From a virus, in the IMG/VR virus record IMGVR_UViG_3300013138_000041, positions 1 to 25,772 of that record: 25,772 nt of DNA; one strand, written 5' to 3'. The notes beneath the pieces are model-generated. The model did not search any database, was not told where the DNA came from, and saw only the letters and a program-made list of their open reading frames with translations. A program made the translations under genes and the position numbers. Each line of letters starts with the position of its first letter. The first letter of the stretch is position 1. Shown here in pieces: positions 2,000-22,204 of this stretch.

Positions 2000-2006
2000 G
2001 ACTCTC

Positions 2007-2713
2007 CTAGTTCCTGCTCTTATAAATCGGGTGGCTGGACCGCCAGGCAGCCATCATCTGGTCCACCTTGTGTTCAGCCGCCCGGTGCTCGGCCCGCTTC
2101 TTCTGACCGGTGGTGATCTCCCTGGCTGCCAGGATCCATTCGTCCGGCAGGGCCTCCACTTCCCAGGGGGCGATCACCGGGCCTCCGGCCGCCTGGTTGA
2201 TGTGCTGGGCTGCGAAGTAGGCCGTCAGGGTGTCGTCGCCCGATCGTCCTGTGCGGGCGGCGTCTGCTCCGGCGGCCTCGATCCTTTTTTTATGTCTCTC
2301 CGATGTTCATCGATCAAGCGCCAGGTGCGGCGGTACATCCATTCCAAGAAGGCGGGATTCTGCTCGTCGATCGTAGCCAGCTCCGCCCGGGTCCAATGCG
2401 TGTCTGCGGGTCCCTGCGACCACAGCCCGGCGTACCATTCATGGATCGCCCGCCTGTAGGCCTCAGCCGAAGCTTTTTTTCCCAACAGCCGGCGGCTTTT
2501 CAGCAGGTCCAGGATGGTCGCCTTTTTGGCCGGTTTCCCGGATTCCGCCCGCAGCAGCTCTCCGAATTCGGCGTTGATGCGGTCGTACTCGCGCAATTCT
2601 GCGCGCGGAGGATCGACCCAGACCCAGATCCCGACCCCGGCCAGTTCCTTCTGCTCCGGGTCATAATCCTGGAACGGAAGGAAATGCACGGTCTTCGGCA
2701 GGTTGAATCGCAT
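2007..2713 (-). CDS. Tail assembly chaperone GT (product of -1 frameshift)
   Basis: This is the extended product expected from a -1 shift at the run of seven A (2285-2291 on the minus strand). Reading ATA AAA AAA and slipping back one base gives AGG ATC GAG and then an open frame of 92 residues ending in TAG at 2007-2009, just before the tape measure start. The predicted protein is about 235 aa: 143 residues shared with G plus the T part, which is rich in Ala, Glu and Lys and ends in HPIYKSRN. The arrangement (G, slippery site, T frame, tape measure) is the standard one in phage lambda and many long-tailed phages, where G and GT coat the tape measure before tail tube polymerisation. The T frame has no start codon with a ribosome site of its own at its beginning, which supports frameshifting. 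Confidence 0.85.
2225..2713 (-). CDS. Tail assembly chaperone G
   Basis: A 162-aa protein starting 2 bases after the tail tube gene stop. It has an N-terminal beta-type segment (MRFNLPKTVHFLPF), a helical middle with many Glu/Arg/Lys, and a Pro-rich end (PPEQTPPAQDD). It occupies the position of lambda gpG between major tail protein and tape measure. The last 19 codons after the slippery run are used only when no frameshift occurs. Sequence similarity alone would not identify it; the call depends on order and on the frameshift signal. Confidence 0.85.
   Translation of the reverse strand: MRFNLPKTVHFLPFQDYDPEQKELAGVGIWVWVDPPRAELREYDRINAEFGELLRAESGKPAKKATILDLLKSRRLLGKKASAEAYRRAIHEWYAGLWSQGPADTHWTRAELATIDEQNPAFLEWMYRRTWRLIDEHRRDIKKGSRPPEQTPPAQDDRATTP
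2285..2291 (-). other. Slippery heptamer for -1 frameshift (A AAA AAA)
   Basis: Seven consecutive A on the minus strand sit in the phase A AAA AAA GGA, so both tRNAs can re-pair after slipping back one base. The -1 frame is open for 92 codons beyond, while the zero frame stops 19 codons later. No obvious pseudoknot was worked out downstream; the following sequence is GC-rich. Confidence 0.85.
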
Positions 2714-2715
2714 GG

Positions 2716-3717
2716 CTAGACCGTGCTCTTGTCGGTGCAGACGTTCACAGCGAGCATCGCTGCGCCGGTCGGGTCGTAAAATCCGTGGAATAGGGCGGTG
2801 TGCAGGTTGTCGCCATCCGCCTCCGAACCCATCGGCACCATCTCTTCGAAGCGGCCCCAGAGATCCACCGTCAGGAAGTGGGTCTGGCCGGTGCCGATTG
2901 CGGAGCCGGGGATCTTGAGCTCGATCGCATACGGAGTGCGCGCCAGGTAGCCATCGTAGTACCCGTCAGCGGTCGAATTGCCCTCGAGGGTCATGCGCAA
3001 CATCACATCGATGTAGGTCTCGCCGTGGCTGTCCATCGTGAGCCCGTTTCCGTGGAAACGAGGGTGCAAGCCGGAGATCATTTCCAGGCTGAAATCCCGC
3101 AGCAGCCCGGGCCGGTCATGCACACCCCTGTCGGCCCAGCTCGTGTCGATGAACAACTGGGTCATATTGGCGACCATCGGCTCGATGGTGGGGATCGTCA
3201 GGCCGGAGGTGAAATCGGTGGCCGCAATGCTCTTGGCGAAGCAGTCTGCGCCCAACTTGATGGCGGCGTTCTGCCCCATTGCCCCCTCGATGGTCAGACG
3301 CTTTGCCATCACATAGGTGAGCAAATATTGCTCGACGTCATCCCCGACCTCGAACGTGAAACTGTCCTGGCTGTTGGTGGCCGTCAGGCTGGGTGTGAAT
3401 GCCCAGTCATAATCATCTTGGTCCTCCGTGTGTTCGGTGGCGGTGATGTCACCCTTTAGGAGCATCGAGAACAGCATGGGCAGGATCTGGAAATACCCAT
3501 TCTCGACCGTCAAGGCGAAGGAATCCACCTTCTGCTCGTAGAGGTGGAACTCCGCCGCCCGGGCGCGCAGCGCCAGGTTATAGTTCGGCGCAACGTACTG
3601 GCGGTCGCTCGGTACACCGGCATCCCCCAGGAAGATGCTGGTGGCATTCACCTCGGTGCCCTTGGCGGTTTTCAGTTCTTTTCCGAACTGGACCTTCTTG
3701 AAAGTTCGTTCACCCAT
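2716..3717 (-). CDS. Major tail (tube) protein
   Basis: A 333-aa protein with ATG at 3717; its AAAGGAG ribosome site overlaps the stop of the upstream small gene. The sequence is mostly predicted beta, with phrases such as FQILPMLFSMLLKGD and DYDWAFTPSLTATNSQDSFTFEVG, which resemble phage tail tube proteins that stack in hexameric rings. It is followed directly by the G/GT chaperone pair and preceded by the tail terminator-like and gp10-like genes, which is the usual order. At 333 aa it is longer than the roughly 150-250 aa of simple tube proteins, so an extra surface domain in the second half is possible. Confidence 0.8.
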   Translation of the reverse strand: MGERTFKKVQFGKELKTAKGTEVNATSIFLGDAGVPSDRQYVAPNYNLALRARAAEFHLYEQKVDSFALTVENGYFQILPMLFSMLLKGDITATEHTEDQDDYDWAFTPSLTATNSQDSFTFEVGDDVEQYLLTYVMAKRLTIEGAMGQNAAIKLGADCFAKSIAATDFTSGLTIPTIEPMVANMTQLFIDTSWADRGVHDRPGLLRDFSLEMISGLHPRFHGNGLTMDSHGETYIDVMLRMTLEGNSTADGYYDGYLARTPYAIELKIPGSAIGTGQTHFLTVDLWGRFEEMVPMGSEADGDNLHTALFHGFYDPTGAAMLAVNVCTDKSTV

Positions 3718-3720
3718 TGG

Positions 3721-3933
3721 TTACTCCTTTTCTTCGGTGGTCTCGGCCACCGGCTCGTCGGCTGCTGCATAGTTGCCGTTCGCAATGGCAGCCTTCAGGG
3801 TATCAAGCAGGCCAAGTTCTTCGGCCTGCGCGGCTGTCACTTCGTGCGGCAGCCCTGGAACGCCCATCCCGTTTCCGCAGAAACGATATGTGCGGGCAAG
3901 CTCGATCTCGTGCTCGATCTGTTTCTTTGCCAT
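3721..3933 (-). CDS. Small hypothetical tail-region protein
   Basis: A 70-aa protein with ATG at 3933 behind GGAAGGAG. It begins MAKKQIEHEIELARTYRF, includes PGLPHEVTAAQAEEL, and ends in an acidic Glu-rich tail (VAETTEEKE). The middle looks like the short membrane-independent helix-turn pattern common in small phage proteins that carry a residue-counting phrase such as AAQAEELGLLD. It sits between the tail terminator candidate and the tail tube gene. The last codons contain the ribosome site for the tube gene, suggesting coupled translation. Function is unknown; a minor tail or connector accessory role is only positional. Confidence 0.75.
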   Translation of the reverse strand: MAKKQIEHEIELARTYRFCGNGMGVPGLPHEVTAAQAEELGLLDTLKAAIANGNYAAADEPVAETTEEKE

Positions 3934-3944
3934 GTTGCTCCTTC

Positions 3945-4406
3945 CTACGCACTGATGGTTATCTGACCGCTGACATCTTCCTTGACCCGCCAGTGCACCA
4001 GAATGCCGCGGTGGCTCGGTCCCGCTCCGTATTCGAACTCGACCAGCGACAGCGCCCCGGGTTCGAACGGGATGCTGAACTCGGAGACGGTCCCGGCCAG
4101 CTTGATATTGCCGGCTGCCGCGCTCAGGATCTTGCGGAAGAACGGCAGCGCATAAGGGATGTTGTTCAGCTGCACATCGCCTGCCAGGTGGAATTCGGTG
4201 GCACCATCCCAGATCAGGATCGTCGGGATCGAAGCACCGTACTGCGGCTGCAAGCCGGTGGGATAGGAGATGGCACAGGGGAATTCTGTAATACTCTCCG
4301 GGATCCTGTCCGACTTGTCGAACAGGCGGTAACTCTTGACGAGTTTCCCCTGCCCGTCGTCGAACATCCAGATCTTCGCCAGGGCATCGATCCAGGTCTC
4401 GATCAT
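3945..4406 (-). CDS. Tail terminator-like protein
   Basis: A 153-aa protein whose ATG at 4406 overlaps the previous stop in an ATGA. It starts MIETWIDALAKIWMFDDGQGKLV and contains the phrase DKSDRIPESITEFPCAISYPTG, followed by alternating beta segments (ILIWDGATEFHLAGDVQ) and an end rich in Val/Ile. Size and fold pattern match the tail terminator/joining proteins (lambda gpU type) found after the gp10-like gene. The assignment is from gene order and secondary-structure impression; no single diagnostic motif is visible. Confidence 0.6.
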   Translation of the reverse strand: MIETWIDALAKIWMFDDGQGKLVKSYRLFDKSDRIPESITEFPCAISYPTGLQPQYGASIPTILIWDGATEFHLAGDVQLNNIPYALPFFRKILSAAAGNIKLAGTVSEFSIPFEPGALSLVEFEYGAGPSHRGILVHWRVKEDVSGQITISA

Positions 4407-7711: not shown

Positions 7712-8146
7712 TTAGACACCAACCGAGGTCTGAACGTCGGAGACGCTCGCATCGTCGGTGATCGGGGCACTCTTGCCCTTGTACTTGATGGCGATCATGT
7801 TCCCGTAGGCGATGTTCGCGGTGGCGCTCACGACATTGCCCTGGATGTACCGCTTGAGCGGCTTGTACACATCCACGATCAGCAGGGTGTTGTTGAGGTC
7901 GTCGCTGGACGCGGAGGTCGCGGTGGCTGTGGCGACCGTGGTCATGCCAGTGTCGCTGTCGGCAGTGTTTTCCTGCGCGTTCAGCGTGGCAACACCCGTG
8001 GCGACCGAATCGGTGATCGGAACGATGAAGACCACTCCATCCCAACCGGCCATATCCAGTCTGTCACTGTTGCTGTCCGTGCTGCTGGCTGCCGCGACCG
8101 GCGCCAGTACTTCAGCGATGATATTGTTTTTGGTTAGCTCATTCAT
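7712..8146 (-). CDS. Head decoration-like / capsid-associated protein
   Basis: A 144-aa protein with ATG at 8146 behind TAGGAGG, 12 bases after the major capsid gene stop. The pattern MNELTKNNIIAEVLAPVAAASSTDSNSDRLDMAGWDGVVFIVPI, seen here in pieces, is typical of small proteins following phage capsid genes: a short N-terminal arm, the phrase LDMAGWDGV, then Thr/Ala/Asp-rich beta segments, and a C-terminal FxxDVYKP-like strand (LLIVDVYKPLKRYI). It is most likely a virion protein, perhaps a decoration protein. I see no enzymatic motif. Confidence 0.72.
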   Translation of the reverse strand: MNELTKNNIIAEVLAPVAAASSTDSNSDRLDMAGWDGVVFIVPITDSVATGVATLNAQENTADSDTGMTTVATATATSASSDDLNNTLLIVDVYKPLKRYIQGNVVSATANIAYGNMIAIKYKGKSAPITDDASVSDVQTSVGV

Positions 8147-8158: not shown

Positions 8159-9355
8159 TCAGGCGAGCTTGACGCGGGCGAATGCGGCTTCGAGTACGGG
8201 CATTGCATCGCACTCCAGCCGGCCGATGAAACCGACCTGGTTGGTGGCGGCATACAGTTCATCCAACCGCTGAACCTCGAAGAACAGGGAATCAACGATG
8301 TGGTAGTACTTGAAGTCGCCCAGGATGCCCACGTAGAGGCCGGTGGTGAAGGTGCTAGGAGCATATTCGCTCATGTGCACCGGGAAGCCGAGCAGACGGT
8401 CCGGTTCGCCGTTCACCAGGCTATCTGCCCAGATGTAACGGCCCTCGTCGTCCTGCAACTTGGCGATCTGCTTGACCGCTGAGCGGTGGAAGATCCAGCG
8501 CGCATTGCGCCAGTACTGCCCCTTCAGGTTGTACTTGGCTTCCTTCAGCCCGTCGGTCTGGATCGAGGTGGTGGTGTTGCCGGTCGAAACATCGCGATCG
8601 GTGGAGATGCCATCGTCGCTGGCGGTGAAGACACCCAGCGGGCTGTTGACGCCGGTGCCGTTGAGGAAGTTGTTCTCCTCAACCACGCCGAATTTGTAGG
8701 CGAGGCGGTTGACGACCAGGTCCTCAGCGGAGGGCGTCAGGCGGAGCAGCTTGCGGCTGACCTTGATGTACTGCGCCAGCGGGTGAGGGGTCAGGGTGCG
8801 TTTCCCGAAGGTCATGGAGCTGTCTTCGGAACCGATCAGGATTTCGCTGGTCCAGGTGGGATCTGCCGGATCTGCCGCCAGGTAGGGTTGGCCGAGGCTG
8901 TCCGAGCGGGTGACTTGCTGCACATCGGAATACTGCCGGACGAACACCTCGTCGTCGATCGCCGTGATCAGGCGGTCAACAAACTCTTCCGGCATCACGG
9001 TGTACCCACCGGATGCGTCGGCATCGGCTTGCAGGGCACGCAGCTCTGCAGGCACCATACCGCTGGCGAGGAAGGAACGGACAGCCGCCATGCGCTTCTC
9101 AGCGTCCAGTGTGGCTTGACGCCCATCCGGGCGCTCGGGATCTTCGATCAAGGTGCCCAGGTCAGCCTCCAGCGATTCGAGGTTCTCGGCGCGGGAGATC
9201 TCACCCTGCAGCTTCTCGACATCCGCCATGATGGCGTTGTACTGGTTGTCTTCCTCCTGGGTCATGCCCCGGTTGGCTGCATCGGCTGCATCGACGAGGC
9301 CGCGCGCCTGCTTGATCAGGCCGGCACGCTTCTGGCGAAGTAAGGTGGATTTCAT
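8159..9355 (-). CDS. Major capsid protein, HK97 fold
   Basis: A 398-aa protein starting MKSTLLRQKRAGLIKQARGL; the ATG at 9355 follows TAGGAGAAAAACC. Residues 1-95 form a charged coiled-coil region (delta domain or scaffold) with QYNAIMADVEKLQGEISRAE, which in HK97 phages is removed by the prohead protease. The capsid core follows a linker (RQATLDAEKRMAAVRSFLASG) with SGGYTVMPEEFVDRLITAI, then RTLTPHPLAQYIKVSRKLLR near the middle and GFPVHMSEYAP and FIGRLECDAMP near the end. These phrases and the portal-protease-capsid order are diagnostic. An alternative start further upstream has no ribosome site. Confidence 0.95.
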   Translation of the reverse strand: MKSTLLRQKRAGLIKQARGLVDAADAANRGMTQEEDNQYNAIMADVEKLQGEISRAENLESLEADLGTLIEDPERPDGRQATLDAEKRMAAVRSFLASGMVPAELRALQADADASGGYTVMPEEFVDRLITAIDDEVFVRQYSDVQQVTRSDSLGQPYLAADPADPTWTSEILIGSEDSSMTFGKRTLTPHPLAQYIKVSRKLLRLTPSAEDLVVNRLAYKFGVVEENNFLNGTGVNSPLGVFTASDDGISTDRDVSTGNTTTSIQTDGLKEAKYNLKGQYWRNARWIFHRSAVKQIAKLQDDEGRYIWADSLVNGEPDRLLGFPVHMSEYAPSTFTTGLYVGILGDFKYYHIVDSLFFEVQRLDELYAATNQVGFIGRLECDAMPVLEAAFARVKLA

Positions 9356-9384
9356 GGTTTTTCTCCTAAGGGTTGAATGTTGAA

Positions 9385-10041
9385 TTACGAACGGTCTGCC
9401 AGGTCCAGGCATTTGCGCAGCAGGGATAGCCGCTCCTGCGGCTGCTGCTCATTGCCACCTCCAGCCTTGGCCGCCTGGCTTCGGTTGGAGAGGATCTGGT
9501 TCCATTCGTCCTGTTTCGAGCGCACGGCTGCGCTCGTTTTGACATAGGCGGGGAACGTGACCGGCGAAACCTCGTACAGGATGCCGATCTCGGTGATGGC
9601 GCGCAGCGGAAGCTGGGTCTCATCCTCTGGATACGTCCAGTCATCCCTGAGCACGGTAAAATAAAAACTGGATTGGTGGATATCGCCGCGCGCCACCTTG
9701 GCGTACTTGCTCATCGCCTCGGGATCATCAGGGTTGATGTCCACGATGTAGCGCAATCCGGCAGGCGTATCTTCCAGGTGCAGTGTGTTGGATGTGGTGC
9801 GCCCAAGGATGATGTCCCAGTTATGGTTCCATGCCGCAACGGTGTCCGGATTCTCGGCCAGCACACGATCGAAGGCGCCGGGCCGGATGACCTCGCGGAA
9901 CCAGGAGATCTTTGCTTCCTGGTTGTACACGGCAGCAAGGCCCACGATCGTGGGGCGATCATCACTCTCACGCTTCGCAGCGCTCAGTTCCACTGCCAGG
10001 CTGCGGCATTCGAATTCAGGATTGTCGATTTCAGGCGGCAT
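9385..10041 (-). CDS. HK97-family prohead protease (peptidase S78)
   Basis: A 218-aa protein whose ATG at 10041 overlaps the portal gene end by 11 bases. Motifs of the family are clear: RPTIVGLAAVYN near 29-40, REVIRPGAFDRVL near 49-61, the catalytic histidine in AAWNHNWDIILGRT (His73), and the catalytic serine in HQSSFYFTV (probably Ser125). The protease matures the prohead by cleaving the delta domain of the capsid protein, itself encoded next. The last 50 residues (SNRSQAAKAGGG...) are a variable, probably removable tail. Confidence 0.94.
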   Translation of the reverse strand: MPPEIDNPEFECRSLAVELSAAKRESDDRPTIVGLAAVYNQEAKISWFREVIRPGAFDRVLAENPDTVAAWNHNWDIILGRTTSNTLHLEDTPAGLRYIVDINPDDPEAMSKYAKVARGDIHQSSFYFTVLRDDWTYPEDETQLPLRAITEIGILYEVSPVTFPAYVKTSAAVRSKQDEWNQILSNRSQAAKAGGGNEQQPQERLSLLRKCLDLADRS

Positions 10042-11623
10042 TGTTACCTTCCTTTTCTGCGTATTCCTGGATCATGCGGATCAGCAAGCCGGGCAGTTCC
10101 TTCTCCCAGCTGTCCAGCAAACCGGCGATACTCTCCTGGTCCGACAGCTGAACCAACACCTTTCGATTTTCCTCGCACCAGCTCTGTGCCAGTTCCGTGC
10201 TCCCCTGGGCAGCCTGGCTGTTGGTGAGGCGGGAATAGGTTTCCAGCACCGGATCCAGGGCCTTGCGGATAAACTCTGTGTGCTCCTGGTAGAAGCCATC
10301 CAGCCAGGCTGCCAGGGCCTCCGCCGTCTTATGCTTTTTCAGCCCCTCACGCAGGTCATGGATCTCGCGGCGGACAATCCGGCCGGCAGCTTCCGCCACC
10401 GTGGGTTCGAAGTTCCGCTTCATGTCTGCCGGGACCATGTTGAGCGGGGTCAGGTACACCTGGCCCTGCCTGCCAGGCAGCGGGTTGCGATTCTCCATCG
10501 CCAGGATGTCATCGGCCGATAACCAGCCCCACTGCCTGCCGATCGCATACGCGGCGTATCTGGTCTCAATGTCTCCCCGAAGGAGAGAATCCATCAGGGT
10601 CTCGCAGAAGTAGACGCCCCGTTCGTCCGGCGATAGCAGGCTGTGATTGATCGCCTGGTCGAACCGCACTGCCCAGGGACGGATGGTGTGCGTGACGTAA
10701 CTAAGCATGAATTGCTCGACCGATGCATAGGTGGCGGCCTTGTCATGCTCCTGGAGCAGCGCCAGGGGATAGCCGTAGATCCTGGCGACCTCTGCGATCT
10801 GGAAGGAAAGCAATTCCAGTAACTGCGCGTCTTCAGGCGGAACGCCAACCACTTGAACTTTCATGCCCTCCTCGGCAACAAACACACCGTGGGAGTTCTC
10901 GGATCCCTGGTGTTCTTCGAGGAAGGATGTGCGGAGGTTCTGCTCTGCCAACTTGCTCAAGGTCTTGGGATGCTCGAGGACAATACCCGGGCGGGCACCA
11001 TTCGAGAAAAACTTTCCCCCGAATTCCTCGGCCGCAAGAGTCGTTGCCAGGGCATTGCGTGCCAGCTGGAGCGGTGACAGCCCCATCAGCCCGTCAAATC
11101 CGAGCCCGGGCACATGCATGATCTCGTCGGCCGGAAAATCCCTGGTCTTCCCATTCTGTTGGCGGTAGTGGTATAGCTTTTGATTCCCCTTGCGCTCGAT
11201 CCACATGCGGTCTGAGCTCAGCGGCCAAAGTTCAGCCACCTCACCGCCCTTCGTCCGGATGATCTGATAATATGCATTGCCCCAGGCCAACACCCAGGCG
11301 CCACCTATCTCCCAACCCCATTGTGCAGTGTGTTCAGGATTGAGGGCATCATGCAGGATCGGGTAAAGTGAATGCTCGTAAGCCCTGCGCTTCCCTCCCC
11401 CGGGGATCCGCTGGTACAGGATCTTCGGCAGGGTCGAGAGCGTTTCCGAGATCCCACGGATGCAGGCGTACACCGCCGTGATGCTCATGGCCGTGGAGAG
11501 CGTGACATCCTTGCCGGCATAAGTATCCCCGCCATAGCCGGTGATCACCTTCCCGGGAGGCGTCTGGCTCACGTGCCAGGTGGTTGATCCGTGCGATCGC
11601 TGCTCTGCCAGTCGTCGCAGCAT
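10031..11623 (-). CDS. Portal protein, HK97 family
   Basis: A 530-aa protein. The ATG at 11623 overlaps the stop of the small membrane gene (TGATG) and follows AGGAG. Family phrases: TAVYACIRGISETLSTLPKIL near 50-70, WGWEIGGAWVLAWGNAYYQII near 104-124, HVPGLGFDGLMGLSPLQLAR near 170-189, FFSNGARPGIVLEHPK near 208-223, and IAEVARIYGYPLALLQ near 280-295. The dodecameric portal forms the DNA channel at one capsid vertex. The C-terminal 130 residues are helical with many charged residues, longer than the core family and probably the crown or barrel. Confidence 0.94.
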   Translation of the reverse strand: MLRRLAEQRSHGSTTWHVSQTPPGKVITGYGGDTYAGKDVTLSTAMSITAVYACIRGISETLSTLPKILYQRIPGGGKRRAYEHSLYPILHDALNPEHTAQWGWEIGGAWVLAWGNAYYQIIRTKGGEVAELWPLSSDRMWIERKGNQKLYHYRQQNGKTRDFPADEIMHVPGLGFDGLMGLSPLQLARNALATTLAAEEFGGKFFSNGARPGIVLEHPKTLSKLAEQNLRTSFLEEHQGSENSHGVFVAEEGMKVQVVGVPPEDAQLLELLSFQIAEVARIYGYPLALLQEHDKAATYASVEQFMLSYVTHTIRPWAVRFDQAINHSLLSPDERGVYFCETLMDSLLRGDIETRYAAYAIGRQWGWLSADDILAMENRNPLPGRQGQVYLTPLNMVPADMKRNFEPTVAEAAGRIVRREIHDLREGLKKHKTAEALAAWLDGFYQEHTEFIRKALDPVLETYSRLTNSQAAQGSTELAQSWCEENRKVLVQLSDQESIAGLLDSWEKELPGLLIRMIQEYAEKEGNNAA

Positions 11624-11811
11624 CAATGCTCTCCTGCAGGCGTCGAGTAGTAGAAGCCGGTTCCGGCGAGTATGGCACCCACCACGGCCAGGCCCCAGCC
11701 CCAGCCGATTGCCAGGCCCAACCCGATCAGGATAAAGGCCAGCCCGACCCAGAACATCACATCGGGCGTTTCCATGGAAACGATTTTCTTTTCTGCTGGC
11801 TTTTTGGGCAT
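11623..11811 (-). CDS. Small membrane protein in front of portal gene
   Basis: A 62-aa protein: a lysine-rich N-terminus (MPKKPAEKKIVSMETPDVM) followed by a continuous hydrophobic Gly-rich segment of about 33 residues (FWVGLAFILIGLGLAI, then GWGWGLAVVGAILAGTGFYY), enough for one long or two short membrane spans with a Gly/Trp turn. It is the first gene after the promoter and hairpin leader. A holin-like role is possible on size and topology, but charged termini and location do not prove it. Confidence 0.7.
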   Translation of the reverse strand: MPKKPAEKKIVSMETPDVMFWVGLAFILIGLGLAIGWGWGLAVVGAILAGTGFYYSTPAGEH

Positions 11812-11833
11812 GCTGCTCCGGTTAAAACAAATG

Positions 11834-11875
11834 CGCCCGCCAGTACGGGCCTTGCGACTCGTGAGCTGGCGGGCG
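11834..11875 (-). repeat. Leader hairpin downstream of the late promoter
   Basis: Ten-base perfect arms CGCCCGCCAG (11834-11843) and CTGGCGGGCG (11866-11875) enclose a 22-base loop. On the transcribed strand the 3' arm is followed by CATTTGTTTTAACC, a broken T-run, so it could act as an attenuator or leaky terminator between the promoter and the virion operon. Confidence 0.6.
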
Positions 11876-11937
11876 GTAAACTCCGTCTTTCCCTATCTGC
11901 CCCAACCTAACACGTGCAGGCGGGGGGTTGTGCGCTC

Positions 11938-11967
11938 AATATAGCACAAAAATTCTATGTTTGTCAA
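11938..11967 (-). promoter_or_regulatory. Near-consensus sigma70 promoter for the virion genes
   Basis: On the minus strand TTGACA (11962-11967, perfect -35) is followed after 18 bases by TATATT (11938-11943, five of six for -10). It overlaps the stop codon of the upstream gene and lies in an AT-rich island in otherwise GC-rich DNA. A 126-base leader with a hairpin separates it from the first downstream gene. Confidence 0.7.
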
Positions 11968-12254
11968 GTGGTTGGCATGCGATAATGCCGATTCAACCAG
12001 GCGAGCACTTTTACCTCCAGCGGCAGCCAATCCACGTAGGGCATGCTAAAGTGACCCGAGAACCAATCATGCCACTGGTCATCATCGAATTCCGGCTCTG
12101 TGGTGCACGAAATATCCAGGCCGCAGTCGGTTATTTTTCCGGTTTCCGTCTCCCATTCATCGATTTCCTGGATATAGATCTGCGCTCCACAGATCGGACA
12201 CTGAAACAGTTCAAGCGGGATCTCGGGGTAATAGTTAGGATCGATGATCAGCAT
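11964..12254 (-). CDS. Small acidic zinc-ribbon-like protein
   Basis: A 96-aa protein starting 2 bases after the large terminase stop, with AAAGGTG as ribosome site inside the terminase end. It has CPICG at residues 19-23 and a second pair C44/C50 (DCGLDISC), so a zinc-binding knuckle is plausible. The middle is strongly acidic (EIDEWETETG, EPEFDDDQWHDW), and the end is aromatic and basic (VLAWLNRHYRM). The sequence pattern resembles small restriction-alleviation or DNA-mimic-like phage proteins, but I cannot assign a function. It closes the packaging operon before the virion promoter. Confidence 0.72.
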   Translation of the reverse strand: MLIIDPNYYPEIPLELFQCPICGAQIYIQEIDEWETETGKITDCGLDISCTTEPEFDDDQWHDWFSGHFSMPYVDWLPLEVKVLAWLNRHYRMPTT

Positions 12255-12256: not shown

Positions 12257-15037
12257 TTACACCTTTACCACGCCGCGATCTTCGTACACCGACCGGCCGG
12301 TCTCGCCCTGGTTGCGCAGCGCCCAGCCCAGGCCCATGATCAGGGCCACGATGCCGTCGATCTTCTCTTTCGAACGCTCCTTGTCCGGCTTGATGTTGCC
12401 AGCCGGGTCAGATCTGGCGATCAGATTGTCAGCCATCCAGGTCAGCACCGGATTGTTTCCATGCGCCAATTTGCCACCGAGCACCAGGCGCTCAAGCTCC
12501 TTCATGGCCGGACTCATGGACTGGTATCCCTGGCCGAATTCGAAGATGTCTATCGTCAGGCCGCGTTTCAACAGCATTTGCCGCAGGTATTCCGCGTTCC
12601 AGCGATCGTATGGGATCCCGAGGATCTGGAACTGCTCCAGATCCTGCTCGAGCTCGTCCAGGATCCAGTCATAGTCGATCACATTTCCCGGCGTGGCTGT
12701 CAGGTAACCCTCATCCCGCCAGATATCATAAGCCACCGCATCGTTCTCGACGCGCGCTACCAGGTTGTCTTCCGGGCACCAGAACCGGCAGACCACATAC
12801 CACGGGTCGTCATCCACCAGCGGAGGGAACACGTGTATAAGTGCGGTGAGATCCCCCTTTGATGACAGGTCAAGACCTGAGTAACAGGTATGCCCCGCCA
12901 ATACTTCGGGCAGATCCAGCGCCTGGTGCGGACCGGCGCATTTTCCCCAGGCATCCATCGGCATCCACTTGATCTCGCCCTGCACCCAGCAGTTGAGCTC
13001 CTTTTGCTTGAAGGCGTTGAGGGCACTGGGCATGCTCTTGGCGCGTTCCGCCTTGACGCGCATGTCGGACCACTTTTTACTCACGCCCAGGTTGGGGTTG
13101 GCCTTGATCCAGACTGCCTCATCGCGCCAGTCATCCTGTTCGTCGAGGGTGTAGATGATCCCGAACCAGGTGTCATCCTCAACGATCCGCTCCAGGACGC
13201 GGCGGGTGTACTCGTGTTTTTCGTAGCACACACCCTGGCGGTTCGTGCCCGCAGTGGTGATCGCCAGGATCAACGGCTGCCGCCGGCTGCCGGTGGCCGT
13301 CTCGAGCACATCCCACACGGCGCGGGTCTTGTGAGCGTGAAGTTCGTCCAGGACGGCAGCATGGATGTTTAGGCCGTCCATCGTGTCACTGTCGGCCCCC
13401 AGGGGTTCGAAGCGCTGAGCGTGATCAACCTGGTGGATATTATCCTTGTATGTCACCACCCCATTCCTGCGCAATACTGCCGACTTGCGCACCATGCGGA
13501 CCGCTTCCCCATGCACGATGCGCGCTTGATCGCGTTTGGTATTATGGGTGCGAATCATTGCTCGGCCAACCAAATATAAATGCGATGGAGCATCAACGCC
13601 AATGCAGCGAACAGGTAAGGATTTTACTGGCCTCACGTCAACGATGTAGCATCGTCGTGCCCGTGGATCATGCTTATCACGTTGTCGTTCGAATTTGCGG
13701 GATAGCTCAAAGACACGCATGGAGCGCGGCGCCTTGAAGCTCACTATATAATGCGGTTTTCCAGCGACGATGATACTGCGAAGATTTGGTAATAATCCAA
13801 GGCTGACTACCAGTTCCCATACACCATCCGCAATTAATTTATTTCTGTTGGTAAATCTGCATTCTCCTGTTTTTGTACAGGTGCCATCAGTATCCATCAA
13901 TCCCTGCAATAAAGCTAACCTTTGATTAATTGACCCACGCAAGTATTCAGCTGGAATATGCTTATTATCAAGAAGATGCGCTTTTCGTAGTAAAGTTCGG
14001 AGACCAGCTGGCGTGAAACGCAGTAATTTACGATCGCCCTGAACGAGAATTGAAAAACCATCGGCGTTTATTCGTTTTGTTATTTCCGCATCTTTTGGAT
14101 GAATGATAAGCGCGCCTCGATTCGCACGCCCGTCACCCAACCATGCACCTAGTGTATAAGGCGGAACAGGGAGATCTATATCCGGGATCTCTAAGGGACC
14201 GCCGATTTCAATTGCATGATTCGTACGATTTCCAGAACATTTGATGGTGTTGGCGATTTCCTTGGTCGTTAAGATAACTGTCCCACGCCTTTGCGCTCTT
14301 GGCCCATCCCATTCTGATTTTGGCCGCCCTTTGCGTTTCTGACCAGTGACACTGATCACAGGCCATCGATGTTCGCCATCGCATACAATGTTGGTTTTGT
14401 CATTGAATACCATTTGAAAACATGGGCGGCCGAATAGCACTGGAGAAACGTAATCAACGCATACAATATGTCCCTTTTCATCAAAGACAAGATCACCCTT
14501 TTTTACATCCCCCATTGTCGTCCATCCTGTTGGTGTCGGGATGGGGGTATCTAAAACTAAAGGCGCAGCGGTGTAGCACTCCGCACCTGGCTCCCCTCCT
14601 GGAACTTCGTCGGCAAAGGACAGATACAGCATGATTCCCGCTGCCCACGTCGATTTTCCAGACTTCCTAGCAACCTCGATGTAAGCCGTTCGGAATCGCC
14701 GCGTGCCGGCAGTATCCTCGCGCTGGCCGTTGCGTTCGACGATCCAGCGAGCATGTGGGGCACGCTTCCAGCCGAAGATCACCCAGGTGATGAACTGTTG
14801 CCAGGGTTCCAGCGCAAGCGGCTGGCCGGCCCATTCGCCCTTGGAGTGGCACAGGATGCTAAAGAAATCCAACGCGCGCTGGGCTGCCTTGCGGTCAAAA
14901 ACGAGGCCACGATCGGCGCCGTGCTTCAAGTCATCGACATGGCGCTGGCAGGCTTTACGCACCCAACGGCAGGCGACGATCCGGCCAGCGAGAACATCAC
15001 GTGCGTATCGTTCAGCAGGTGGGAGTTTGGCTGGCAT
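12257..15037 (-). CDS. Large terminase (TerL), interrupted by an intein
   Basis: A 926-aa precursor; removal of a 341-aa intein would leave 585 aa, the normal TerL size. Host protein parts: Walker A-type VARKSGKS (122-129), motif CYTAA/TKRDQAR split by the intein (154-158 and 500-506), Walker B AAVLDEL (560-566), coupling motif ILAITTAGTN (590-599), and the RNase H-like nuclease with Asp723 and Asp729 in GLDLSSKGD and a C-terminal KIDGIVALIMGLGWA. The ATPase drives DNA into the prohead and the nuclease cuts concatemers. The start is linked to terS by TGATG. The insertion point is in the conserved ATPase core, typical for inteins. Confidence 0.95.
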   Translation of the reverse strand: MPAKLPPAERYARDVLAGRIVACRWVRKACQRHVDDLKHGADRGLVFDRKAAQRALDFFSILCHSKGEWAGQPLALEPWQQFITWVIFGWKRAPHARWIVERNGQREDTAGTRRFRTAYIEVARKSGKSTWAAGIMLYLSFADEVPGGEPGAECYTAAPLVLDTPIPTPTGWTTMGDVKKGDLVFDEKGHIVCVDYVSPVLFGRPCFQMVFNDKTNIVCDGEHRWPVISVTGQKRKGRPKSEWDGPRAQRRGTVILTTKEIANTIKCSGNRTNHAIEIGGPLEIPDIDLPVPPYTLGAWLGDGRANRGALIIHPKDAEITKRINADGFSILVQGDRKLLRFTPAGLRTLLRKAHLLDNKHIPAEYLRGSINQRLALLQGLMDTDGTCTKTGECRFTNRNKLIADGVWELVVSLGLLPNLRSIIVAGKPHYIVSFKAPRSMRVFELSRKFERQRDKHDPRARRCYIVDVRPVKSLPVRCIGVDAPSHLYLVGRAMIRTHNTKRDQARIVHGEAVRMVRKSAVLRRNGVVTYKDNIHQVDHAQRFEPLGADSDTMDGLNIHAAVLDELHAHKTRAVWDVLETATGSRRQPLILAITTAGTNRQGVCYEKHEYTRRVLERIVEDDTWFGIIYTLDEQDDWRDEAVWIKANPNLGVSKKWSDMRVKAERAKSMPSALNAFKQKELNCWVQGEIKWMPMDAWGKCAGPHQALDLPEVLAGHTCYSGLDLSSKGDLTALIHVFPPLVDDDPWYVVCRFWCPEDNLVARVENDAVAYDIWRDEGYLTATPGNVIDYDWILDELEQDLEQFQILGIPYDRWNAEYLRQMLLKRGLTIDIFEFGQGYQSMSPAMKELERLVLGGKLAHGNNPVLTWMADNLIARSDPAGNIKPDKERSKEKIDGIVALIMGLGWALRNQGETGRSVYEDRGVVKV
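13541..14563 (-). other. Class 3 intein with LAGLIDADG endonuclease in TerL
   Basis: Residues 159-499 of the precursor. It begins PLVLDTPIPTPTGW (block A) without the usual Cys/Ser at position 1 and ends MIRTHN before Thr500. It has His223 and Trp225 in block B (GEHRWPV), Cys478 in block F (PVRCIGVD) and Thr497 in block G (RTHN). This Trp/Cys/Thr set is the hallmark of class 3 inteins, which use the block F Cys as first nucleophile. Two dodecapeptide motifs, LGAWLGDG (296-303) and LLQGLMDTDG (376-385), mark a homing endonuclease. The DNA is visibly more AT-rich than the flanking terminase parts, in keeping with horizontal insertion. Confidence 0.93.
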
Positions 15038-15534
15038 CAGGTTTTCTTGACCTTTACCCCTGGTCCGAACAGCTCAGCCTCCAGGTTCTTCTTGGCCTTC
15101 TCGTCGGGCGGATCCGCATGCACCTTGGATCGGCTGGCCGGTGTCAGGCCAAACTCGGCAGCCAGGGAATTCAACTGCTCGTTGGCTTTATTGGCAACTG
15201 CCAGGTGTGGGTTCTGCACCAGGTTGCCATTCCTGGTTGTGATCACCGGTCCGCCAGTTTTCTCGATTTTCTCCTCGGCCTCCAGCCAGCGCTGGTAGAT
15301 CTGGCAGTAGCGCGCCAGGGCATCCAGATCGATCGTGGTGAGCACACCCAGCATGAGCAGCTGGGCCGTGATCTTTTTCCAGTGCTCGCGCGCAGCACCA
15401 TGCAAGTGGTCCGGGCACGCCGGCGCATGCGAGAGCTTGGGCGGCTTGGGTTCGCTCTTGTTCAGTGCGCGCTTGCCCGGGTTGCCCTCCAGCTCTTTGA
15501 TCGCCGTGGGCTTGGGCCTCCGTCCCTGGGTCAT
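15037..15534 (-). CDS. Small terminase (TerS), P27 family
   Basis: A 165-aa protein with ATG at 15534 after a G-rich ribosome site (GGGTGGA). The start MTQGRRPKPTAIKELEGNPGKR is the signature of the P27-type small terminase, followed by HLHGAAREHWKKITAQLLMLG and LTTIDLDALARYCQIYQRW (near 66-84), and PVITTRNGNLVQNPHLAVANKA. TerS recognises the packaging site on phage DNA and regulates the large subunit. Its stop overlaps the TerL start by one base. The 27-bp repeats directly upstream are candidates for its binding site. Confidence 0.94.
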   Translation of the reverse strand: MTQGRRPKPTAIKELEGNPGKRALNKSEPKPPKLSHAPACPDHLHGAAREHWKKITAQLLMLGVLTTIDLDALARYCQIYQRWLEAEEKIEKTGGPVITTRNGNLVQNPHLAVANKANEQLNSLAAEFGLTPASRSKVHADPPDEKAKKNLEAELFGPGVKVKKT

Positions 15535-15675: not shown

Positions 15676-16032
15676 CTACCCCCAGCGGCCATCTTCGAGC
15701 GCGGTTTTCCGGCTGTGACACTTCTGGCACAGCCCCTGCAGGTTGTTTTGGTCATTCGTTCCGCCTTCCTTGATCGGTTTGATATGGTCCACCTGGGTGG
15801 CGCGCACCGCATCCAGGTGAATGTCATACGGATCGGAACACCAGGGGTGTTTCCGCAGAAACGCAATTCGAATTCGCCGCCAATTGCTGTCGTAGCCGCG
15901 CTGGCTGGGAGACGGACGTACCGCATCCAGGCGCTGCTGATGCTCGCGGGCATGGCGTGCACAGCGGCTGCCCTTCGTGACTAGCGTGGGGCAGCCCGGC
16001 TCAACGCACGGATGGGGGGCACGTGTGGGCAT
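15676..16032 (-). CDS. HNH endonuclease adjacent to terminase
   Basis: A 118-aa protein. The ATG at 16032 overlaps the stop of the membrane microgene (TGATG), which supports this start. An N-terminal cysteine cluster (CVEPGCPTLVTKGSRCARHA, Cys9, Cys14, Cys24) precedes RGYDSNWRRIRIAFLRKHPWC, and the HNH core is VDHIKPIKEGG, then NLQGLCQKCHSRK with His and two CxxC cysteines near residues 82-110. HNH proteins beside terS/terL (as HK97 gp74) assist the terminase in cos cleavage in several phages. Here it lies directly on the other side of the 27-bp iterons, fitting a cos-type packaging module. Confidence 0.93.
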   Translation of the reverse strand: MPTRAPHPCVEPGCPTLVTKGSRCARHAREHQQRLDAVRPSPSQRGYDSNWRRIRIAFLRKHPWCSDPYDIHLDAVRATQVDHIKPIKEGGTNDQNNLQGLCQKCHSRKTALEDGRWG

Positions 16033-16151
16033 CAGGCACCGAAAACCTTGGTAACCAGGAACCAGAGACCGGCCGAGATCGCAATGCACACGCAGATCCA
16101 CGCCAGCATGTACAGCACACAGCACCCGCCGCGGCGGTCATCCGGGGACAT
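16032..16151 (-). CDS. 39-aa membrane microprotein
   Basis: ATG at 16151 follows CAGGAGAGACCG, and the stop overlaps the HNH start as TGATG. The peptide begins MSPDDRRGGCCVLYMLAWIC and continues with VCIAISAGLWFLVTKVFGA: a charged N-terminus and one transmembrane segment of about 25 residues with four cysteines. The first 14 bases overlap the end of the zinc-ribbon gene. The ribosome site, tight overlaps at both ends and membrane character make it likely real although very short. Function unknown. Confidence 0.72.
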   Translation of the reverse strand: MSPDDRRGGCCVLYMLAWICVCIAISAGLWFLVTKVFGA

Positions 16152-18321: not shown

Positions 18322-18632
18322 TCAGGCGCGCCGATGATCACGGCGATCGCCACATCCTCAGCCAGGATCGGCACGCCTTTCTCGCGGATGTCTGCCCTGA
18401 CTTCCTCGATCGGGATCCAGAAGTGGCCGGCGATGTCTTTTGCCAGGCGTGTGATCTCATCCGATGTGAGCGCGGCAAGATCCAAAAAGTAAACCTTGGT
18501 GTCCCCGATGCCATCCACAGAGACGACCGTTGCGTTCGCACTTTTGATCGGCACATTGTCCAGGCGATTGAAGACCTGCTGCCAGCGCTCTGCACGCGGG
18601 CTGGCGGGGTTGATCGAGGCGATCACGGTCAT
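18318..18632 (-). CDS. Hypothetical protein downstream of ParB-like gene
   Basis: A 104-aa protein with its ATG in an ATGA overlap with the ParB-like gene stop. Begins MTVIASINPASPRAERWQQV; contains VVSVDGIGDTKVYFLDLAAL and LAKDIAGHFWIPIEEVRADI, and ends GVPILAEDVAIAVIIGAPE. It looks like a small alpha/beta domain. Translational coupling to the ParB-like protein suggests a partner of it, which is inference. Confidence 0.72.
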   Translation of the reverse strand: MTVIASINPASPRAERWQQVFNRLDNVPIKSANATVVSVDGIGDTKVYFLDLAALTSDEITRLAKDIAGHFWIPIEEVRADIREKGVPILAEDVAIAVIIGAPE

Positions 18633-20473
18633 TCGTCCTCGCCTTCTTCGTCCATATCACCAGGGACCTCATCCTCGCCCATATCGTCTTCCTCGTCCTC
18701 GTCTTCTTCCCCGCTCTCGACGACAGGCGCTGCGGCAGACGCTTCAGAAAAGGCCTTGGCCTTCTCCAGCCAGTCCTCTGGCAGGGTCACTTCCCATTCC
18801 TTTGCCACGCCCTGCAGATGCTCCGCCACAGCCAGGGGACCTTTGGACCTTAGTTCCCACTCGACAACGTAGGACAGGAACCAATCCGCGAGTTCCATGC
18901 GTACCAGGCGGAAAAACTCCTTGGGGTCAACCGGCTGTCCATCCTTGTTGCGTTCGCATTCGATATCATCGGGATCCGAGACAACTTTTAGAAGGGTAAG
19001 AATGAATTGGTCGGGCAAAGGATCAAAAAGATGGCAAAAGGCAGGTAAGGAAACGTCGCTGAGATACTGCTGGCTAAAATGCCTGTTCTTCTCCGCGAGT
19101 TCCCGCTTCGCCTGGGCTTCGTCGTAGCGAGCGCTTGACTGCTCGCGCTCTTCCTGTTGGTGCTTTTCCTTATCCTTCGCCGCCTGGATGTTCTCGGGCG
19201 TGACGTCCACCAGGTAGACCAGCGGGGAGTTGGTGTACTCGTACCTACCCCATCCCTTTGGCTTGCCAGGCATCAGGCGCAGGCCGGGGATACGTTCCTC
19301 CCAGGCTTTATCGGAGGTCTCTGGATGTTGGTAAGACTCCATGTATTTCAACATCTCTTCGCCGTCCGCGGCCGGGTCGTAGATCGGGATATTCAACTTC
19401 TTGCTGAGTTCCACCGCCTTGATCATCGACCAGGCCTGTCTCTTGCGCTCAAGGCAGGCATTCCAGCAGCACAAGTGGTTGTCGCCGCCGCGCACGTAAT
19501 ATTGACAGCGCGTGCAAGCCGGTGGGTGCGTCAGGTGCGCCAGTTTCTCGATCGTCTCAACCGGAGCGCCCTGGTCGATCAGCGCCTGGGCGGCGACCAG
19601 CCCGCTCTCCAGGTTGTCGATCCAGCCCTTGAGTTCCTTCTTGCGCTTGCCGCCTTCCGTCCCAACCGCCCCGGCTTCCTGGGCGGCCTCCTGGGTCAGT
19701 TTGGGCATGGCGGGGAATTCGTCGAAGTCGAGTTTCCAGAGATGATCCCCGGCGGTCGGCGGATCCCGGTGGTTGTATTTGCTCTGCAGGTACTCCACGT
19801 TCGGAGAATTGGCCAACTTGGCGACCAGCACCTCCGCCGGAGCCTTCCCCTGCTGGATGGCCTTGGTGGCGTCTTCGACCTTTCCGGGGGCGATGCGCTG
19901 CAGGGTCAGCAGACTCCTGGCTGCCCCGATGTTGATCTCGCCGGCGGCCAGTTGCACCTGGGCCGTCTCCGGCAGCCCCAGCAGGCGGATGGTGCCGCGC
20001 ACGGTGCTTTCGTCGACGTTGAAGAATTCCCCGGTCTCGGCCGAGGTCTTGTGGAACTTGTCCATGTAGGTCTGCATGGCCTTGGCGCGCTCGATCGGGT
20101 TCAGGTCCCGGCGCTTGATGTTCTCGGCCACGGCGATCTCGAACATCTGCAGGTCATCCAGGGGACGGATGAAGCAGGGCATCAGTTTGTACTTGTGGTC
20201 ACTCTTTGCCAGCAGGCGGTAGGCTGCCAGGCGCGTGTGGCCGAAGGCCAACTGGTAGCCAAGGCCTTCCTCCTGGATCGCCTTGGGGACCGCACCACCC
20301 AACAGGGCAATGCCCAGGTCTTGAAATTCACGCACGGTGGGGGGCTGCAGCAGTTTATTGCGTTGGATGTTCTCGGCCAGTTCCGCCACCACGGCGGGAT
20401 CCTCCGCCTGGCGTACCTGGAACGGGTTGGGGACGATCAGGTCGATCTCGATCATTTCGGGGGCTTCGTTCAT
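18629..20473 (-). CDS. ParB-like protein with Cys cluster and acidic tail
   Basis: A 614-aa protein starting MNEAPEMIEIDLIVPNPFQV. The N-terminal ParB/sulfiredoxin-type domain (about 8-125) has QLAFGHTRLAAYRLL (GHTR at 78-81) and AVAENIKRRDLNPIERAKAM (114-133), then an HTH-like region TSAETGEFFNVDESTVRGTI (143-162), as in ParB, Spo0J and KorB. Distal to this are a cysteine cluster (C320, C323, C335, C336, C340) and a charged linker with EKHQQEEREQSS. The last 30 residues are almost all Glu/Asp. Canonical ParB is about 300 aa and has a ParA partner; no ParA is seen in the window. Phage ParB-like proteins can be nucleases, CTP switches or regulators; the exact role is open. Confidence 0.85.
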   Translation of the reverse strand: MNEAPEMIEIDLIVPNPFQVRQAEDPAVVAELAENIQRNKLLQPPTVREFQDLGIALLGGAVPKAIQEEGLGYQLAFGHTRLAAYRLLAKSDHKYKLMPCFIRPLDDLQMFEIAVAENIKRRDLNPIERAKAMQTYMDKFHKTSAETGEFFNVDESTVRGTIRLLGLPETAQVQLAAGEINIGAARSLLTLQRIAPGKVEDATKAIQQGKAPAEVLVAKLANSPNVEYLQSKYNHRDPPTAGDHLWKLDFDEFPAMPKLTQEAAQEAGAVGTEGGKRKKELKGWIDNLESGLVAAQALIDQGAPVETIEKLAHLTHPPACTRCQYYVRGGDNHLCCWNACLERKRQAWSMIKAVELSKKLNIPIYDPAADGEEMLKYMESYQHPETSDKAWEERIPGLRLMPGKPKGWGRYEYTNSPLVYLVDVTPENIQAAKDKEKHQQEEREQSSARYDEAQAKRELAEKNRHFSQQYLSDVSLPAFCHLFDPLPDQFILTLLKVVSDPDDIECERNKDGQPVDPKEFFRLVRMELADWFLSYVVEWELRSKGPLAVAEHLQGVAKEWEVTLPEDWLEKAKAFSEASAAAPVVESGEEDEDEEDDMGEDEVPGDMDEEGEDE

Positions 20474-20708
20474 GATTGCTTTTCTCCCAAGATCTCTTTC
20501 AGAATGGATATAAAATACGGGGCGTAAGTCAACCCATAGGCTTTAGGGCCTTCGTATACCACGGGGTACTTCTCTGGATGCGCTGCCTGATCTTCGTCGA
20601 ATCGCCGATGCCATTCTGCTAACACCTTCGCTGCAAGCGATTCGGTCAATGCGAATGTTTCTTCGGCGGCTTTCATTTCAGGGGCTTCGTTCATGCTTGC
20701 TGTTCTCC
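20453..20708 (-). repeat. Duplicated start region: two 35-bp copies
   Basis: Bases 20453-20487 and 20674-20708 match at 32 of 35 positions and each holds the ribosome site and the first codons MNEAPEM of a gene (the ParB-like gene and the 74-aa gene before it). The copies are 221 bases apart. Confidence 0.85.
20470..20694 (-). CDS. 74-aa hypothetical protein sharing its start with the ParB-like gene
   Basis: ATG at 20694 overlaps the upstream stop (ATGA), and its own stop overlaps the ParB-like start (ATGA). After the shared MNEAPEM it reads KAAEETFALTESLAAKVLAE, WHRRFDEDQAAHPEKYPVVYEGPK and YFISILKEILGEKQS: an acidic helical protein. Function unknown. The gene sits between two ATGA junctions and may have been generated when the start region was duplicated. 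Confidence 0.72.
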   Translation of the reverse strand: MNEAPEMKAAEETFALTESLAAKVLAEWHRRFDEDQAAHPEKYPVVYEGPKAYGLTYAPYFISILKEILGEKQS

Positions 20709-21311: not shown

Positions 21312-22070
21312 TTACACAAACAGCGGTTCTTGTAATTGGGCTTGCTCGATACGTTTCTTCGCGATCTCAAAATACTTAGGCTCCAGCTCGCAGCCGATGA
21401 AGTTCCGTCCGAGCTGGACGCAGGCTACTCCGGTAGTGCCTGATCCCATGAAGGGGTCAAAGATGGTGTCGCCAGGAAGACTGTGTAGTTTGATAAAATG
21501 CGCAGCCAAAGAAACAGGCTTTTGTGTGGGATGTTCATCAGCAATTGGAATAATTTTGTGAATTCCTTTTCCTGGGCGAATAATATTCTCAATTTTTTTT
21601 GACGTGTCATACCATTTGCAAGATGCCCCTCTTTTTTGCGCTACTAATATGGTTTCATAAGAACGGCGATAATGCCAACCCATCCCCATAGGCCCCTTAT
21701 CCCATACCACCATTTGTTTGAAGTCAAAAACTTCATTCATCCATAAAGACCAACGGGCAAACTGCGGGTCCGGTCCACCACCATCACCACAACAACAACA
21801 ACAACCACCCGGAAATAAAATTCTATTTAGTTCCGGTAAAACATTCTTGAATAGTTCGTTAGCTTCTTCGCCATCGTTAGCGATTGGTCTGTTTTTTTCG
21901 GGAGTATATTCGCCTTTTCCAAGAGCGGCCTCCCGTCTTGAAATAAGATCGCCATTATTATTATTATGCCCATAGGGTGGATCGGTAAAAATCATATCTA
22001 TGCTTTTATCCGGCATGGACTTCATGTATTCCAGGCAATCGCCAAGATACAATTCTACTTTAGATGGCAT
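21312..22070 (-). CDS. DNA methyltransferase, beta class (N6-adenine or N4-cytosine)
   Basis: A 252-aa protein; the ATG at 22070 follows AAGGAAAT. The catalytic TDPPYG motif is at 29-34 and the AdoMet-binding DPFMGSGTTGVA motif at 205-216, with a HPTQKPVSL motif (about 180-188) between: the order IV then I defines the beta class. It transfers a methyl group from S-adenosylmethionine to an exocyclic amino group of adenine or cytosine, probably to protect phage DNA from restriction. The protein carries HNNNN after the catalytic motif and a GGCCCCC/GGG stretch near 90-100, encoded by AAT and TTG-like triplet runs. No cognate endonuclease is adjacent. The gene is AT-richer than its neighbours. 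Confidence 0.93.
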   Translation of the reverse strand: MPSKVELYLGDCLEYMKSMPDKSIDMIFTDPPYGHNNNNGDLISRREAALGKGEYTPEKNRPIANDGEEANELFKNVLPELNRILFPGGCCCCCGDGGGPDPQFARWSLWMNEVFDFKQMVVWDKGPMGMGWHYRRSYETILVAQKRGASCKWYDTSKKIENIIRPGKGIHKIIPIADEHPTQKPVSLAAHFIKLHSLPGDTIFDPFMGSGTTGVACVQLGRNFIGCELEPKYFEIAKKRIEQAQLQEPLFV

Positions 22071-22204
22071 ATTTCCTTTTCCTTCGCCGGCCTGCACATC
22101 GTACATAGTCCGTTATGGTTATGGTGCCGGCAAATTGGCGCGCCGCACTTGGAGCAGTACCGAACGCGCCTTTTTCCGCACCGCGCCACGGTGGTGCACT
22201 TCAC
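22055..22204 (-). CDS. 49-aa zinc-finger protein, GTG start
   Basis: The GTG at 22204 overlaps the previous stop as GTGA, and the end overlaps the methyltransferase start by 16 bases. The peptide starts VKCTTVARCGKRRVRYCSKC and goes on GAPICRHHNHNGLCTMCRPAK: eight cysteines and several histidines, a likely two-zinc knuckle. Basic residues suggest nucleic-acid contact. A longer upstream-starting frame would overlap the previous gene and has no ribosome site. Confidence 0.72.
   Translation of the reverse strand: MKCTTVARCGKRRVRYCSKCGAPICRHHNHNGLCTMCRPAKEKEICHLK

Follow-up and report, generated by a model that had tools for sequence, protein, structure and literature searches.

The window analysed here (25,772 bases) is an entire IMG/VR virus record, linear and possibly a fragment. 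It carries a tailed-phage gene set, all on the minus strand, around a gene for a large orphan ParB-like protein (parB, 18629-20473; 614 aa). An N6/N4 methyltransferase gene is annotated at 21312-22106, and parB itself lies upstream of a module of HNH (15676-16125), TerS (15037-15534), TerL (12257-15037), portal (10031-11626) and capsid (8159-9412) genes, likewise from the window annotation. The predicted TerL is 926 aa long and includes a LAGLIDADG-type insert (E 7e-5, intein-like); for comparison, the TerL of a relative phage (L003) has 582 aa. Directly upstream of parB, a 74-aa protein (20470-20694) begins with seven residues, MNEAPEM, identical to the first seven of the ParB protein, perhaps a sign of local duplication of the start region.

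A preliminary description of this DNA had placed a ParB-like gene at 18629-20473 with a ParB-type N-terminal half, and both points hold: the minus-strand frame is open for 614 aa, with GHTR at residues 78-81, AENIKRR at 116-122, and Pfam matches to ParB_N (PF02195; E 8e-9, 35.8 bits against a cut-off of 26.3) and HTH_ParB (PF17762; E 2e-14, 54.4 bits against 22.6). From the Pfam match, the conserved boxes and alignment to solved ParB chains, the ParB_N/CTPase-fold domain covers residues 6-120 (20114..20458, minus strand). It is followed by the HTH_ParB DNA-reading domain at residues 123-193 (19895..20107, minus strand), whose recognition helix, DESTVRGTIRLL, includes Arg159. The usual ParB is about half the length of this protein. 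The general model TIGR00180 is matched at 80.1 bits (cut-off 58.45), while membership of two narrower groups is not reached: 84.5 bits against 315 for Noc (TIGR04285) and 47.2 against 278.6 for PRTRC ParB (TIGR03734). The twelve solved sequences matched by the window protein are all ParB, Spo0J or Noc chains. The protein has all three CTP-pocket boxes, LLQPP (Box I), GHTRLAA (Box II) and ENIKRRDLNPIERA (Box III), with Boxes II and III aligning to a solved ParB chain. Among the window protein and its relatives, the Box II pattern occurs in 39 of 45 proteins and the Box III pattern in 28 of 45, so that the CTP pocket, judged by that pattern, is not intact in every relative. By these domain matches the window protein is a member of the ParB/RepB/Spo0J superfamily (ParB_N plus HTH_ParB). 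Which nucleotide a ParB-fold protein uses is not predictable from sequence, according to the parts of a recent survey drawn on here (Kaljevic et al., 2025, PMC12704722).

Relatives were found by alignment-based scans at 44 IMG/VR loci, not counting the window's own record; where they need to be told apart they are given locus numbers (L003, L005 and so on). At 27 of the 44 the match extends beyond residue 400, and at the remaining loci it lies mainly in the ParB part. Seven relatives in alignment A2, one of them partial, are 35-48% identical, the closest by identity being L007 (48%). Scans with single proteins found no relatives, probably because the chosen peptide patterns fell in variable parts; the family was recovered with sub-sequences and alignments as queries. 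Two scans of genome contigs found no relative, and in tblastn searches of named phages and plasmids no record had a single place covering 80% of the query; among the phages matched, Aphanizomenon phage Yong-DA has a ParA adjoining a shorter ParB, and Acidovorax phage Aval has a "ParB" gene of 2.9 kb. The 36-member alignment used below comprises the 45 proteins minus nine that are duplicates, truncated or odd (L005, L009, L010, L013, L027, L032, L033, L035, L036). One of these, L035, has two adjacent ParB-like ORFs (9803-10855 and 10830-12074), of which the second (414 aa) alone has a GHSR box and a VRN recognition helix, without the Cys4 feature described below.

The gene order ParB, p197, HNH, TerS and/or TerL, portal recurs at eight close-clade loci, as far as each reaches, four of the eight being near-identical. 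The DNA methyltransferase at 21312-22106 was considered as a ParB partner and rejected: it is matched at none of the eight close-clade loci, among which L007 has less than 2 kb of DNA before parB and L013 has none. Upstream of parB in L009 (5747-6076) there is a stand-alone DnaA N-terminal-domain protein (PF11638). The 39-kb record of L008, a relative phage with matches to terminase, portal and capsid, includes type IV CRISPR-like genes at 1671-4389, Csf2 (E 1e-19) and Csf3 (E 5e-17), along with a CysH-like gene, all three below curated cut-offs; a Cys-rich ORF at 655-1452, which matches no NCBIfam model, might at a guess be Csf1-like.

In the C-terminal half of the protein, the family alignment points to a zinc-binding-type Cys4 knuckle, C-x2-C-x11-C-x4-C, at residues 320-340 (19454..19516, minus strand). 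The five cysteines first noted in this stretch are all present (320, 323, 335, 336 and 340), but only four are features of the family: across the 36 aligned members, Cys occupies each of positions 320, 323, 335 and 340 in 30, and position 336 in two. By pattern, a CxxC...C...C cluster is found at 34 of the 44 loci. The four conserved cysteines form two pairs (C-x2-C and C-x4-C), the arrangement of a zinc-binding-type site, and the knuckle may bind zinc. Farther along, an AlphaFold2 model of residues 262-580 (29 sequences; mean pLDDT 89, pTM 0.63) predicts a helical domain, one long helix plus a bundle, at residues 426-577 (18743..19198, minus strand). The model of the whole protein (8 sequences) has a mean pLDDT of 74 and a pTM of 0.43, with pLDDT below 50 in the linker (230-257), in part of the Cys region (316-323) and over residues 579-614. 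A PDB fold search with the C-terminal model gave no convincing match (Foldseek best E 1.7; VIA-align best Z 4.2). The best match in a viral library, A0A6J5M246, had E 7e-13 with the whole protein and 0.08 with the C-terminal part, and the C-terminal part of L014 (307 aa), searched against plasmids, had no match at E 0.1.

The acidic tail, located by composition and by comparison with relatives' tails, occupies residues 587-614 (18632..18715, minus strand; pLDDT below 50), and its acidic residues, originally put at about 30, number 19 Asp or Glu in the last 28 positions. Tails vary among relatives: that of L003 is similarly acidic, others end in peptides such as VSTETE, and in many the tail is short or missing. 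Since the cysteines are kept across relatives and the tails are variable, the Cys4 knuckle is part of the family and the acidic tail a local feature; the weight originally given to the tail as a key element is thus unsupported, the tail not being conserved. The near-identical genes of L005 (about 7896-7905) and L009 are out of register by a single base in a run of A, and the resulting frameshift falls close to where the long C-terminal helix begins; this could be an error or real slippage. In L013 (same DNA as L171), the C-terminal part is absent from near the same helix start, through a different lesion.

The preliminary description had seen no ParA, and PF13614 and PF01656 indeed have no match in the window record, nor in the records of 10 relatives. 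PF13614 is matched in two of 33 further records, those of L045 and L046, bringing ParA to 2 of 44 records overall; that of L015 stands outside this set, and the records (up to 60 kb) may be fragments, so that the count does not extend to whole genomes. L045 and L046 are distant members with another recognition helix and, in the part of the record examined, no copy of the site described below; by coordinates, their ParA adjoins parB. As L045 has a Cys cluster (with other spacing) together with a ParA, Cys4 alone is no marker of a ParA-less type. With ParA at the neighboring position, this Cys cluster and a palindrome, TGTTTTCCCAGGAAAACA, immediately after the gene (9905-11701), L045 resembles a related type of parAB-parS unit. 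The ParA-binding motif [LFI]G[KR]G[LFI] is found in none of the 45 proteins, with start extensions and stop-to-stop frames included and the L013 sequence taken without its N-terminal part.

Of 22 records of our choosing, 15 have a serine or tyrosine recombinase domain; within the window's close clade one of six does (G006), and the window has none. Repressor-like HTH_3 genes occur in two close relatives, that of L011 scoring below the Pfam cut-off. Together, the recombinases and repressor-like genes favor integrating phages without a need for plasmid partition, although for the window itself they are no proof. The earlier suspicion that ordinary ParABS partition is probably not at work is supported: neither ParA nor its binding motif was found in the window, and recombinase domains occur in those 15 of 22 records. 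The window protein is a real, conserved phage ParB, apparently ParA-independent.

It had also been stated that no partition site is visible, which proved wrong: a parS-like palindrome occurs in the window, twice exactly and once with a single mismatch. A search free of prior expectation, for perfect 6-bp inverted repeats with gaps of 0-4 in seven records, found the arm CGTTTC-N4-GAAACG in six of the seven, while in five mononucleotide-shuffle runs no arm was common to more than two records; a second, unrelated arm (GGCGAC-N4) was common to three. The resulting candidate site is the 16-bp palindrome CGTTTCCNNGGAAACG, whose GTTTC arms are also those of chromosomal parS. In 39 records (the set without those of L003, L005, L010, L027, L032 and L015) it has 24 exact copies, 54 copies at up to one mismatch (21 records) and 85 at up to two (27 records); 124 control palindromes matched in composition average 0, 0.1 and 3.2 copies, respectively, over these 39 records, with maxima of 0, 2 and 13. 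Of the 54 copies, 21 are in the seven discovery records and 33 in the 32 records outside discovery. Eighteen of the 39 records have no site at up to one mismatch, several of these records being fragments or examined in part; at up to two mismatches there is none in L015 and L027, or in the 19.6-kb record of L007. At the other extreme, G007 has 14 copies at up to one mismatch across 60 kb.

In the window, one exact copy (CGTTTCCATGGAAACG, 11767..11782) lies in the terL-portal interval, inside a 62-aa ORF (11623-11811), and the other (CGTTTCCGTGGAAACG, 3045..3060) inside an ORF at 2716-3717. A pattern scan adds the copy with one mismatch, CGTTTCCGCAGAAACG (3870..3885), and a weak candidate with two, TGTTTCCGCAGAAACG (15848..15863), which may be due to chance. 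The terL-portal interval site is exact in the window and in L013, has one mismatch in L008 and L009 and two in L011, and is missing from L007. In L008 and L011, the sites outside parB are in no plus-strand ORF of at least 40 aa. A scan of viral contigs for the exact site returned, among the matches listed, 117 new stretches; a ParB-type match at E <= 1e-6 is present in 10 of them, weak in three (about 31-34% over 173-179 aa), some of the 10 coincide in contig or DNA with known members (L061, L067, L096, L171), and most of the stretches listed are outside the ParB family. The scan therefore lends the pairing of site and family weak support, and the pairing of this ParB protein with the candidate site is put forward as an association between sequences.

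Many members also have the site within parB itself. In 16 of 40 parB genes (those of L005, L009, L010, L027 and L032 not being counted), a copy with up to two mismatches starts 24-51 bases before the gene end; for L035 the count used the neighboring ParB-like ORF, but the true gene is also without a gene-end site, leaving the figure unchanged. L034, L038 and L043 have copies further inside parB. The window's own parB end has no site (best, six mismatches), and in its clade the gene-end site is also missing from L003, L007 and L008; L011 has one with two mismatches, and L013 is truncated. The gene-end sites share one reading frame, encoding V-S-T-E-T or close variants, and where the peptide has become VAVET, VPTET, VVTET or VSTDT the palindrome is largely kept. 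In L048, a symmetric double change keeps the palindrome and alters the peptide (CGTGTCCACGGACACG). In a codon test of 17 genes, the fit to the palindrome exceeds that predicted from the peptide and each gene's own codon usage (P 4e-4 to 0.048); the 17 tests are not independent, the genes being related and picked for a gene-end match (L026 with three mismatches).

By our reading, the candidate site has G at half-site position 1, as does parS, and C at position 6, as does the Noc site. Positions 1 and 6 are where parS and the Noc site differ, and the specificity residues are R173/G201 for parS and Q173/R201 for the Noc site, in the parts of Jalal et al. (2020, PMC7383237) used here. Through alignment to solved chains, the four specificity positions map to E155, T161, G166 and G183 in the window protein, neither RTAG nor QKKR; the Noc residues Q173, K179/K184 and R201 are absent. 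The canonical specificity residues were accordingly rejected as an explanation of the site. With E155 and G183 in place of the known parS and Noc readers, the mode of reading must differ and is not predictable. One candidate reader is Arg159. All 19 aligned members with a site in their record have it; of the six members without it, none has a site (Fisher P 0.006, uncorrected for relatedness), and in eleven more of the aligned members the Arg is present while the record has no site. From this distribution we infer that Arg159 may read the site DNA.

Compared with known systems, the window family shares with chromosomal ParB-parS the ParB_N and HTH domains, a palindromic site of 16 bp and a TIGR00180 score over cut-off, and departs from it in that no ParA or ParA motif was found, in the CCNNGG center of the site, and in E155 standing for R173. 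Noc is a ParA-independent ParB relative, VirB is plasmid-borne, and the parABS of actinobacteriophages works with ParA in extrachromosomal prophages. The Noc model is matched by the window protein only far below cut-off, as given above; as with Noc and its binding sites (NBS), sites are spread over the DNA and have C at half-site position 6 (PMC7383237, parts used here), whereas the parS-like G at position 1 and the specificity residues E/T/G/G rather than Q/K/K/R are unlike Noc. KorB of RK2 and VirB are likewise ParB-type, CTP-dependent gene regulators (PMC11790492, PMC10770331). Actinobacteriophage parABS and phage P1 ParABS are further examples of phage-borne ParB with sites, P1 ParABS working with ParA in an extrachromosomal prophage (PMC12704722, in the sections used here), while no ParA was found in the window record. 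The nearest description is that of orphan ParB-CTPase-fold proteins on phages and prophages (Kaljevic et al., 2025, PMC12704722): as far as the relevant parts of that survey go, they too have a ParB fold, no ParA or ParA-binding motif, and lineage-specific extra domains, but the window protein keeps a canonical HTH and Box III, has a Cys4 knuckle and helical C-terminal domain not named there, and belongs to a family associated with a defined DNA site, of which none is reported there. The authors of PMC10286716, in the part drawn on here, know of no characterized phage with ParB only. Our literature search, with subscription papers mostly outside its coverage, found no report of a phage ParB with CGTTTCCNNGGAAACG.

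We consider it rather probable that the protein is a ParA-independent, CTP-gated phage ParB clamp, loading at phage parS-like sites and organizing or regulating phage DNA. In such a system the HTH would read the 16-bp palindrome in the phage's own genome, the same site being found also within parB of many members, mostly at the 3' end. A nucleotide, probably CTP, would be bound in the conserved Box I-III pocket, and binding would close the dimer around DNA, allowing the clamp to slide off the loading site. Clamp closure and sliding away from the loading site is the mechanism of ParB, Noc and KorB. The Cys4 knuckle and C-terminal helical domain, which appear to occupy the place of the usual ParB C-terminal dimerization domain, would probably serve in dimerization or partner recruitment. 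The outcome would be a clamp-coated phage genome, organized or controlled in its expression, with no pushing of plasmid copies by ParA. A wider version, held more tentatively and at somewhat less than an even chance, is that of a phage ParB-only system: phages of one lineage, many of which have integrases, would share a CTP-gated clamp with a new Cys4 and helical C-terminal domain and a dedicated parS/Noc-hybrid site, present genome-wide and in the clamp's own coding sequence, which together would organize or protect phage DNA without a ParA motor.

Several other readings need to be weighed against the ParA-independent clamp. The protein could be a transcription regulator similar to KorB and VirB, its clamps silencing or opening phage promoters, that of its own operon included. 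Both of those proteins are ParB-type CTP regulators (PMC11790492, PMC10770331), parB is upstream of the packaging module, and the terL-portal interval has a site in five close-clade records (one with two mismatches); but both exact sites in the window are inside ORFs and L007 has none; we think this role plausible, if less likely than not. ParB of bacteria lacking ParA is linked to SMC. Staphylococcus and Streptococcus, for example, use ParB-parS without ParA (PMC10286716, in part), and a phage ParB might similarly bring host SMC condensin, or some other DNA factor of the host, to phage DNA: the sites along the whole 60 kb of G007 would fit whole-genome organization, but our searches brought up no known counterpart of the C-terminal half, and we think such recruitment unlikely. 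It also seems unlikely that the protein partitions an extrachromosomal prophage together with a ParA whose gene lies at another place in the phage or in the host. The ParB fold, HTH and parS-like sites are what partition would use, the linear records of the window and its relatives may be fragments, the distant L045 and L046 do have a ParA in the record, and five of six close-clade records have no recombinase. Against this, none of the 45 proteins has the ParA-binding motif, 42 of 44 records (up to 60 kb long) have no ParA, the ParA-bearing members differ in their HTH and have no such site in the part examined, and recombinase domains are found in 15 of 22 records.

The preliminary description named a regulator, a nuclease or a host chromosome manipulator as alternatives to partition; a regulator or DNA organizer remains plausible, while for a nuclease there is no convincing match. 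Two further readings carry very little weight. That the protein is a nuclease or DNA mimic with the acidic tail as its active part is extremely improbable: several viral ParB-fold relatives in BFVD carry the name "ParB-like nuclease domain" and three of eight members match phrog_12047, "ParB-like partition nuclease", annotations only in both cases, and the fold search turns up colicin E3, PARN and RNase III without significance (E > 1); but the HTH and CTP boxes are matched, the Pfam search brings up no nuclease family, no fold match is significant, and the tail is short or missing in many relatives. That the gene-end palindrome arises as a side effect of coding for a conserved tail peptide, VSTET, with other copies arising by chance, is highly improbable as well. 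The single frame and near-constant peptide fit such an origin, as does the selection of the codon-test genes for having the site, but codon choice goes beyond the peptide, the palindrome largely outlasts the peptide variants, sites occur outside parB (in L008 and L011 outside any plus-strand ORF of the size given above), and 54 copies stand against 0.1 in controls.

The question opened is whether phages employ a CTP clamp in organizing or regulating their own genome, with no partition involved. The survey of phage orphan ParBs gives no DNA site, at least in the parts used here (PMC12704722), and a candidate site now makes the question testable. The presence of the site inside the 3' end of the gene may in addition provide a handle for finding further such systems.
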